Assembly (NCBI GenBank): GCA_020356065.1
Contig: CP070632.1
Coordinates: 1,834,897-1,869,153 of the forward strand
DNA from: Nitrospiraceae bacterium
GTDB taxonomy: Bacteria > Nitrospirota > Thermodesulfovibrionia > UBA6902
Direction of reading: 5' to 3'
Length of the DNA stretch: 34,257 nucleotides
Shown in pieces: positions 32,676 through 34,044 of the stretch (position 1 is its first letter; the number at the start of each line of letters is the position of its first letter). The position numbers were made by a program, and so were the translations under genes. Under the pieces are notes generated by a model. The model saw only the letters and a list, made by a program, of their open reading frames with translations, searched no databases and had not been told where the DNA came from.

Positions 32676-32703
32676 TTGACATATGCCGGCTAATATGTAT
32701 TAT
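32676..32703 (+). promoter_or_regulatory. Sigma-70 promoter of the peptide/radical-SAM operon
   Basis: TTGACA (32676-32681) and TATTAT (32698-32703) are 16 bases apart. Transcription would start near 32710, leaving a leader of about 64 bases before the precursor ORF. This gives the small ORF its own promoter, supporting that it is expressed. Confidence 0.7.
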
Positions 32704-32773
32704 GGGAATATAGCCTTGACCGTTTCATCTTCATAGTCAGTCCAACCTTCTGGTCATGAAAGGAGGTGAGATC

Positions 32774-32893
32774 ATGAAAAAGCCTTTAAGCAAAAAGGCG
32801 CTGTTAAAAGAGGCCGATTTCTGGGGAAAAATTAAAAAAAGATCAGGCGACCCTGGAAAAACCTGTCTCAAGTGAAAGGGCTGAAAGAGTTAA
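32774..32893 (+). CDS. Candidate selenocysteine-containing RiPP precursor peptide (SbtA-like)
   Basis: AGGAGGTGA 4-5 bases before the ATG is a near-perfect ribosome site. The ORF opens MKKPLSKKALLKEADFWGKI, is Lys-rich, and reads GDPGKTCLK up to a TGA at 32873. As an ordinary gene it would encode 33 residues. If that TGA and the next one at 32882 are read as selenocysteine, the peptide continues U-K-G-U-K-S to a TAA at 32891, giving 39 residues with a C-x-x-U-x-x-U end. A SECIS-like hairpin follows at a suitable distance, and a radical SAM/SPASM gene starts 107 bases downstream. This matches the 'selenobiotic' family idea, in which a Sec-containing peptide is modified by a dedicated radical SAM enzyme. 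The small ORF is likely real; the Sec reading is strongly suggested but unproven. Confidence 0.72.
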
Positions 32894-32919
32894 CGTTGCT
32901 GGTCAGCAACCAAGGCCCT
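32877..32919 (+). promoter_or_regulatory. Bacterial SECIS-like element
   Basis: GTTGCT (32895-32900) and AGCAAC (32905-32910) form a perfect 6-bp stem capped by GGTC. An outer helix AGGGC/GCCCT (32877-32881 and 32915-32919) can extend it. The E. coli fdhF SECIS, bound by SelB, has GUUGC-AGGUCU-GCACC at its tip, so stem sequence and the GGUC loop are nearly the same. The loop begins 16 bases after the TGA at 32882 and 25 after the TGA at 32873; in fdhF the distance is about 18. This would recruit SelB with Sec-tRNA. No sel genes are in the window. Confidence 0.72.
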
Positions 32920-33000
32920 GGATATGGCAGGGACATCATCTCTATAAACCAGTTTCTGCCATGTCCATTTATAACCCTCTCAACTATATAGGCTTTCTCA

Positions 33001-34044
33001 ATGGCAACAAAAGAAACGTTTGATTTTTTAATCCAGTGGCATCTGACCGAACTATGCAACCTGAAATGCACCCACTGTTATCAGCATGGCCATGGTTCTG
33101 ATGAGCTTGCCCTTGATGAGGTCCTGTCCACAATTAATGAAATAGAATCCACTCTTGAAATCTGGGAGGATGCGTATGCAATGGCCTTTTCTTCAAGTGT
33201 TAATATTACAGGCGGAGAACCGCTGCTTCGAAACGACCTGTTCGAAGTAATCTCTGCATTTCATAACATCGGCTTTGATACGTATCTCCTTACAAACGGA
33301 ATTTTCATCGATAATAACATTGCAAAAAAATTATGTGCCCTCAATGTCAAAGGCGTCCAGATCAGTATAGAGGGACCTGAAGGGATACATGACTCTATCA
33401 GAGGGAAGAACAGTTTTAAACAATCAATCAGAGGAGTGAAACTCCTTAAAGATGCAGGAATGGAAGTGACGTTAAACGCAACAGTTTCAGAAATTAATGC
33501 AGCTTATTTAACAGATACAGTTAAGCTCGCATCCGGTCTTGGAGCAGACAGGCTGGGGTTTTCCAGACTTGTCCCGTCAGGCAGGGGCAGGTCGTTATTG
33601 AAAGAACTGATGAAGACGTCTGAGGTGAAAAGTTTATATGAGAAAATATTCTCAATAAAACCGGACAATGGACTGGAGATCGTTACAGGCGACCCGGTAG
33701 CATCACAGTTCAGAAACAAGACTGGTAACAAGGATTATGGAGATATAGCACTGGGAGGCTGCGCTGCAGGAATATCAGGACTCACCATAATGCCTGATGG
33801 TACGGTAGTGCCATGCCGGAGGCTGCCGGTTCCTGTCGGAAATATAAGGAAGAATTCAATACGGGAAATTTGGGCCATGTCACCTGTGCTTAATGATCTC
33901 AGGGATAGAGGTAAATATAAAGGCAAATGCAGGACATGCGATAATTGGGCTAACTGCCGGGGGTGCAGGGCTATTGCCTATTCGTATTCAGCTTCAAAAG
34001 GGGAAGCTGACATACTTGCACCTGATCCACAGTGTTTTATATAG
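33001..34044 (+). CDS. Radical SAM/SPASM peptide maturase (SbtM-like, selenobiotic type)
   Basis: The 347-aa protein has the radical SAM cluster motif C19-x3-C23-x2-C26 (ELCNLKCTHCYQ), the GGEP SAM-binding motif at 71-74 and the barrel segment ISIEGPEGIHDSIRG. A C-terminal SPASM domain carries cysteines at 254, 272, 310, 313, 319, 322 and 345, enough for two auxiliary Fe-S clusters. SPASM enzymes mostly modify ribosomal peptides through thioether (or C-C) bonds. The opening QWHLTELCNLKC and the neighbour peptide suggest the SbtM group. The start is fixed by an in-frame stop at 32989, yet no good ribosome site precedes it. Chemistry on Sec, such as a selenoether bond, is inference. Confidence 0.88.
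   Translation: MATKETFDFLIQWHLTELCNLKCTHCYQHGHGSDELALDEVLSTINEIESTLEIWEDAYAMAFSSSVNITGGEPLLRNDLFEVISAFHNIGFDTYLLTNGIFIDNNIAKKLCALNVKGVQISIEGPEGIHDSIRGKNSFKQSIRGVKLLKDAGMEVTLNATVSEINAAYLTDTVKLASGLGADRLGFSRLVPSGRGRSLLKELMKTSEVKSLYEKIFSIKPDNGLEIVTGDPVASQFRNKTGNKDYGDIALGGCAAGISGLTIMPDGTVVPCRRLPVPVGNIRKNSIREIWAMSPVLNDLRDRGKYKGKCRTCDNWANCRGCRAIAYSYSASKGEADILAPDPQCFI

Follow-up and report, generated by a model that had tools for sequence, protein, structure and literature searches.

Gene content of the locus

The window, by which we mean the whole stretch of 34,257 nucleotides of a Nitrospiraceae genome that was analysed, contains a very short gene followed by a gene for a radical SAM/SPASM protein (Table 1). 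By translation the short open reading frame reads MKKPLSKKALLKEADFWGKIKKRSGDPGKTCLK-U-KG-U-KS-stop, with the ATG, two TGA codons and the terminal TAA all in one common frame, and a hairpin of the bacterial SECIS type follows the stop codon. An earlier, sequence-only reading had described a TGA at 32873 continued in frame by AAG GGC TGA AAG AGT TAA, and a C-x-x-U-x-x-U tail beside a radical SAM/SPASM gene. The codons lie at exactly these positions, and tail and neighbour are both present. The spacing pattern TGA-N6-TGA-N16-GGTC occurs once in the window, versus 0.07 occurrences expected by shuffling.

No family was found for the peptide in Pfam or NCBIfam; a match to SkfF (E 0.003) and similar weak ones were set aside as short helical matches. 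Its AlphaFold model has a pLDDT of 68.6 overall, with block means of 72 and 84 over residues 1-20. The family is invisible to standard annotation because the gene has only 39 codons, two of them UGA, and would be truncated at a stop codon. A Shine-Dalgarno sequence precedes the gene, and AGGAGGTGA is found 5′ of the ATG in most homologues. The promoter-like site farther upstream is weak (about 1.4 such sites are expected by chance in the scanned stretch). The terminator-like inverted repeat that separates the two genes, followed by a T run, also occurs in relatives. None of these three signals had been mentioned in the sequence-only reading.

Table 1 Features of the peptide and radical SAM genes in the window
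Feature	Position	Strand	Details and basis
Promoter-like site, TTGACA-16-TATTAT	32676-32703	+	consensus scan, 11/12
Shine-Dalgarno sequence, AAGGAGGTGA	32760-32769	+	sequence
Peptide gene	32774-32893	+	39 residues, predicted Sec34 and Sec37, TAA stop at 32891-32893; by translation
Leader-like part, residues 1-30	32774-32863	+	peptide alignment; predicted helix 7-24
Core-like part, C-x-K-U-K-[GSA]-U-K-S	32864-32890	+	71 homologues, codon table
UGA1, predicted Sec34	32873-32875	+	TGA in 71/71 loci
UGA2, predicted Sec37	32882-32884	+	TGA in 71/71 loci; next two codons K/R and S through synonymous changes
Bacterial SECIS hairpin, 6-bp stem, GGUC loop	32895-32910	+	covariation; spacing of 16 and 25 nt
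Terminator-like 15-bp hairpin between the two genes	32920-32966	+	-23.8 kcal/mol, z -4.9
Radical SAM/SPASM protein, 347 aa, proposed maturase	33001-34044	+	Pfam, conservation, co-occurrence

Conservation of the two UGA codons

Relatives were sought in 150 related genomes with the adjacent radical SAM/SPASM protein, and a short open reading frame was found upstream of many of its orthologues. A peptide profile was built from the alignment of these upstream frames and then run on the 150 genomes, where it matched in 48, each time with exactly two in-frame TGAs. When the sample was widened to 396 genomes of the phylum, 59 convincing peptide matches were obtained, eight of them in another class, and again all have two TGAs. 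From 71 distinct homologous loci in two classes we compiled a codon table. The homologue consensus is MKKPLSKKALxKEAAFWxxLKKxAKENPGKxC[HRLQ]K-U-[KSN][GSA]-U-[KR]S-stop, and both TGAs are invariant (71/71), with Cys at neither position in any locus. The peptide alignment also shows conserved residues far 5′ of the UGAs (E13, A14, W17, P27 and C31).

Homologues with Cys at the TGA positions, which are usual for bacterial selenoproteins although not required, were not found among the 396 genomes, all of a single phylum. Four apparent Cys versions (G069:C33, G387, G388:C219 and G321) were rejected as weak, chance-like matches. A second but incomplete leader copy on one contig (G031:C39:1984-2070; E 0.005) has a single TGA and could be what is left of a paralogue.

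Changes were counted, on a tree made from the upstream leader DNA, over the 15 sites that lie between UGA1 and the end of the Ser39 codon. At these sites we inferred 17, 9 and 42 changes at the first, second and third codon positions of the Sec frame (42/68 at the third). Nearly all third-position changes are synonymous, and nearly all first-position changes come from a single Gly/Ser site. Residue 36 is kept as Gly, Ser or Ala by unrelated codons (GGY, AGY, TCC, GCC and GCT), residue 38 is Lys (AAG or AAA) and once Arg (AGA), and residue 39 remains Ser (AGC, AGT and once TCG). The codon after residue 39 varies freely among TGA, TAA, TAG, GAA and TCA, and translation therefore ends there or one residue later. 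A third TGA stands right after the KS pair in about half of the homologues; we rejected it as a Sec codon, as it is not conserved and is too near the hairpin, and it is most likely an ordinary stop.

A selenoprotein gene is expected to keep its in-frame TGA in homologues and to show coding conservation on either side of it, as the 71/71 loci and the codon pattern do here. The sequence-only reading had proposed to ask whether the TGAs align with TGA or with Cys codons in orthologous loci, and would have been refuted by homologues with neither coding conservation after the first TGA nor a hairpin; the TGAs align with TGA throughout, and both conservation and hairpin are seen. We regard predicted Sec decoding at both UGAs as very well supported. 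Sequence evolution, the SECIS and the Sec machinery all uphold the Sec insertion inferred in that reading, but it has no experimental demonstration.

A SECIS hairpin past the stop codon

The SECIS of E. coli fdhF consists of a short stem with a GGUC loop. The hairpin in the window is made of GTTGCT (32895-32900), the loop GGTC (32901-32904) and AGCAAC (32905-32910). It differs from that of fdhF in sitting entirely 3′ of the stop codon and in seeming to serve two UGAs, and also in that the loop in the homologues is often GGUC plus one base, with no bulged U seen. Its loop begins 25 nt past the first TGA and 16 nt past the second, distances that the sequence-only reading had given exactly and that lie inside the published window of 16-37 nt. 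Under the published rule a bacterial SECIS has a loop of 3-9 nt with G in the first two positions, a stem of 4-16 bp, a distance of 16-37 nt from the UGA and a minimum free energy of -7.5 kcal/mol or lower (PMC13188914). The hairpin in the window meets this rule with its 4-nt loop, 6 bp, both distances and -14.6 kcal/mol; a few relatives depart from it (loci L071, L126, L059, L095, L138 and L098).

Folded as a single sequence, the region is only modestly better than its shuffles (z = -1.2), so that the window alone is no proof of a SECIS and comparative evidence is needed. A downstream 6-bp stem with a loop of the GGU/GGG type, in most cases GGUC or GGUCN, is present in 69/71 loci when, as counted here, one mismatch is tolerated. 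The stems covary, as in GUUGCU/AGCAAC, GUUGCC/GGCAAC, GCUGCC/GGCAGC, GCCGCC/GGCGGC and CUCGCC/GGCGAC. Across 25 aligned sequences 98.7% of cells are paired and 15 are compensatory, a level reached by 0/500 shuffles, and sliding the pairing partners destroys the signal. The loop lies 16-18 nt from UGA2 and 25-27 nt from UGA1 in most loci. The hairpin picked out by eye in the earlier reading is thus present, covaries and keeps its GGUC loop in homologues, and one SECIS is apparently common to both UGAs.

Rfam holds no known family for the hairpin region. A lower stem in the window fold (AGGGCU/AGGCCCU) was dropped, as it is not seen in relatives, and a small RNAalifold hairpin (16-19/25-28) was ignored, as it lies in codons. 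Two loci (L138 and L098) have an extra hairpin, CCCGCAGTTGCGGG, between UGA2 and the SECIS, which lengthens the distance to the loop to about 38 nt for UGA2 and 47 nt for UGA1. The hairpins of L071 (G044) and L126 (G379) look broken and that of L059 (G036) has a mismatch, while both TGAs remain in each; the missing, replaced or mismatched 3′ arms in these three loci could reflect decay.

Selenocysteine machinery

The sequence-only reading had named selA, selB, selC and selD as genes that the genome ought to contain, and all are accounted for, selC as a 5′ half only. The source genome has selA, a 631-aa selB open reading frame, and a selD that scores over its cut-off and has one in-frame TGA followed by a hairpin; the genome hence shows Sec use elsewhere. 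SelD (G000:C1:1606201-1607112, locus L155) is itself a predicted selenoprotein, with the sequence KAGGUAAKLG. The tRNA-Sec gene is represented by its 5′ half (G000:C1:2032116-2032168, locus L147), with a CUUCAAA anticodon loop in a TCA anticodon arm, and is followed by a 100-N scaffold gap. A search with RF01852 gave no tRNA-Sec over the cut-off, its weak matches being other tRNAs, and a search for the anticodon-T-arm pattern gave none; both missed the gene because it is cut by the gap, as became apparent with a relative's tRNA-Sec as query. Three relatives have a complete tRNA-SeC near selB. The assembly has additional 100-N gaps, one after selB (L047 15854-15953) and one after the radical SAM gene (L079 9155-9254).

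Since selB is matched in 135/150 genomes, its co-occurrence with the peptide is uninformative. Five of the 48 peptide genomes lack a selB match, and three of these five have selA. Neither selA nor selB was matched in G006 (88% complete) and G091 (99% complete), which have the peptide. G091 is the one awkward case, to be explained either by a missing contig or by ongoing decay of the system. Its peptide and radical SAM genes are on separate contigs (loci L095 and L096), and its SECIS stem has one mismatch.

The radical SAM/SPASM partner

The enzyme has a CxxxCxxC motif at residues 19-26, no N-terminal extension and seven conserved Cys in the SPASM region (254, 272, 310, 313, 319, 322 and 345 in the alignment), a pattern consistent with two predicted auxiliary clusters. 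It represents an unnamed family of radical SAM/SPASM proteins. The best-scoring sequence models are the haem enzymes AhbD (TIGR04545, 190.2 bits) and NirJ2 (TIGR04055, 182 bits), far below their cut-offs of 500, and unlike those enzymes the one here is paired with a peptide gene. Next come ACGX and GeoRSP, also far below cut-off. The maturases of ACGX, GeoRSP, mycofactocin and PQQ, all with scores below cut-off, have the same radical SAM plus SPASM architecture and a small adjoining precursor; we know of no precursor in these four systems described with Sec. The predicted fold is nearest to SkfB, SuiB, PqqE and anSME, leaving aside the antibiotic enzyme BlsE, and all four of these act on peptides or proteins.

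The link between the genes is stronger than the sequence-only reading had stated. Close orthologues of the enzyme and the peptide occur in exactly the same 48/150 genomes, neither being found apart (Fisher p about 2e-40, although the genomes are related and not independent). In seven genomes (G021, G027, G029, G032, G034, G091 and G121) the two are on different contigs, and the coupling is therefore functional and not mere linkage. In general a radical SAM/SPASM RiPP system is expected to pair such an enzyme with a short gene for a precursor, and the locus fits this description. On the basis of the co-occurrence the peptide is likely the substrate of its neighbour, although this, like any enzyme-dependent modification, is inferred.

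No third gene is constant in the neighbourhood in relatives, and no conserved RRE, protease, transporter, exporter or immunity gene was found there. YceI-like or PEMT-like genes lie 3′ of the enzyme only in some relatives, a YceI-like gene directly following the radical SAM gene in L080, L081, L083 and L090. Distant radical SAM homologues (36-42% identity) in seven genomes (L091-L094; G071, G095 and G132) are without the peptide and were set aside. The four loci of this distant clade that were examined (L091-L094) lie beside a large membrane protein (TIGR04222-like in L091), with a TPR protein in L091 and L092.

Relation to SbtA/SbtM

To our knowledge SbtA/SbtM is the only closely comparable system, and it is, as far as we could find, the one family of ribosomal peptides with encoded selenium and radical SAM tailoring. 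There, a Sec-containing precursor is accompanied by a radical SAM/SPASM enzyme, which forms a thio(seleno)oxazole (PMC11002830). The locus resembles SbtA/SbtM (TIGR04081/TIGR04082) in its short precursor with up to two Sec, its SECIS just 3′ of a TGA and its radical SAM/SPASM neighbour (PMC13188914, PMC11002830). The comparison drawn in the sequence-only reading stands as a functional likeness; as to family membership, neither partner matches. The SbtA motif is SGUG versus CxKUKGUKS here, and 25 peptides compared with NCBIfam gave no match to SbtA at E <= 1. The enzyme reaches 136.9 bits against SbtM versus a cut-off of 350, covering only profile positions 199-503 of 516, and the N-terminal part is absent.

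An inventory published in 2026 catalogues 119 families of prokaryotic selenoproteins (PMC13188914); compared through their listed motifs and family models, though not through their sequences, none of them is a C-x-x-U-x-x-U peptide like this one. On the evidence of the listed motifs, the peptide family is neither SbtA/SbtM nor one of the 119 catalogued families; prior mention is not fully excluded, since a 2025 work by Haft and Tolstoy is the source of several entries. Peptide and enzyme would thus form a separate, widely conserved family in two bacterial classes, with an unrecognised selenium-containing modified peptide, the modification being inferred.

Proposed pathway and alternatives

We consider it quite probable that the locus is a two-gene system of a two-Sec precursor and a radical SAM/SPASM modifying enzyme. 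An mRNA would run from the promoter-like site, with the Shine-Dalgarno sequence, to the terminator-like hairpin and yield a precursor of 39 residues, in which a helical leader is followed by the tail C-x-K-U-K-G-U-K-S. SelB, acting on the single GGUC-loop SECIS past the stop, would direct Sec insertion at UGA1 and, nine bases later, at UGA2, and TAA after KS (TGA or TAG in relatives) would terminate translation. The radical SAM enzyme may then modify the precursor, most likely in the Cys/Sec segment, with the helical leader serving for recognition. Sequence evolution backs the predicted read-through at UGA1 and UGA2, as well as the SECIS, the Sec machinery and the obligate gene pairing, whereas the chemistry is inferred, a seleno/thioether or comparable cross-link being one possibility. 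If the proposal holds, the locus is a small natural system in which to ask whether a single bacterial SECIS suffices for Sec insertion at two closely spaced codons.

The near-invariant core suggests a single conserved product and not a diversifying toxin. We infer an intracellular product, a cofactor-like or redox/metal-binding peptide, which is favoured over a bacteriocin because the core is near-invariant and no exporter, protease or immunity gene is conserved. The fullest form of this proposal we advance only tentatively: a peptide-derived selenium cofactor, or a selenium redox/metal centre, made from a two-Sec RiPP precursor by a new radical SAM family, with one SECIS past the stop serving both UGAs and in some lineages doubling as coding sequence for the enzyme N-terminus.

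The alternative that survives best, which we nevertheless hold to be unlikely, is that the peptide works alone, as a small selenoprotein with a redox or metal-chaperone role, and that the radical SAM enzyme makes a different product, perhaps one of haem metabolism, which enters a shared pathway. AhbD and NirJ2 are indeed the closest NCBIfam models, and C-x-x-U-x-x-U is like redox or metal-binding motifs. However, 39 residues with a leader-like helix and an unstructured tail have the shape of a RiPP precursor, the co-occurrence is complete, and the nearest folds are peptide-modifying enzymes.

It is doubtful, to a greater degree, that only UGA2, at the canonical spacing of 16 nt, or only UGA1 encodes Sec, the other terminating translation or being read by another tRNA. 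A stop at UGA1 would free the later codons to drift, and no drift is seen, while the codons after UGA2 change synonymously and go on encoding Lys/Arg and Ser. The attraction of a single Sec is that a bacterial SECIS normally serves one nearby UGA and that UGA1, at 25 nt, is farther from the loop than the UGA of fdhF is; both distances are nonetheless within 16-37 nt.

We give still less credence to a selenium-sensing leader, in which the reading of UGA would control the terminator, and hence radical SAM expression, and the peptide itself would be functionless. The position of the terminator-like hairpin between SECIS and radical SAM gene would suit such a device, as would the overlap of the radical SAM start with UGA1 in nine genomes, but the residues conserved far 5′ of the UGAs and the seven genomes with peptide and enzyme on different contigs are at odds with it.

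Least credible of all is a peptide that ends at the first UGA, with the remainder read in the +1 frame, from an overlapping ATGA/GTGA, as the start of the radical SAM protein by translational coupling. This frame does run from an overlapping start into the enzyme in nine genomes, but in the 62 other loci it usually stops early and the hairpin distance is mixed modulo 3, even within one genus. Changes concentrate at its first positions and avoid its third, where coding in this frame would produce the reverse, and seven genomes have peptide and enzyme genes on separate contigs.

Overlapping frames in nine genomes

Contradicted for most genomes, +1-frame translation could hold alongside the two-Sec reading in the nine. 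In these (L131, L133, L137, L138, L141, L144, L098, L130 and L136) the frame of the enzyme starts at an A/GTG overlapping UGA1, and the predicted Sec codons and the SECIS also encode the enzyme N-terminus, which is dual coding. A selenium-dependent balance between precursor and enzyme is possible in these overlapping lineages.
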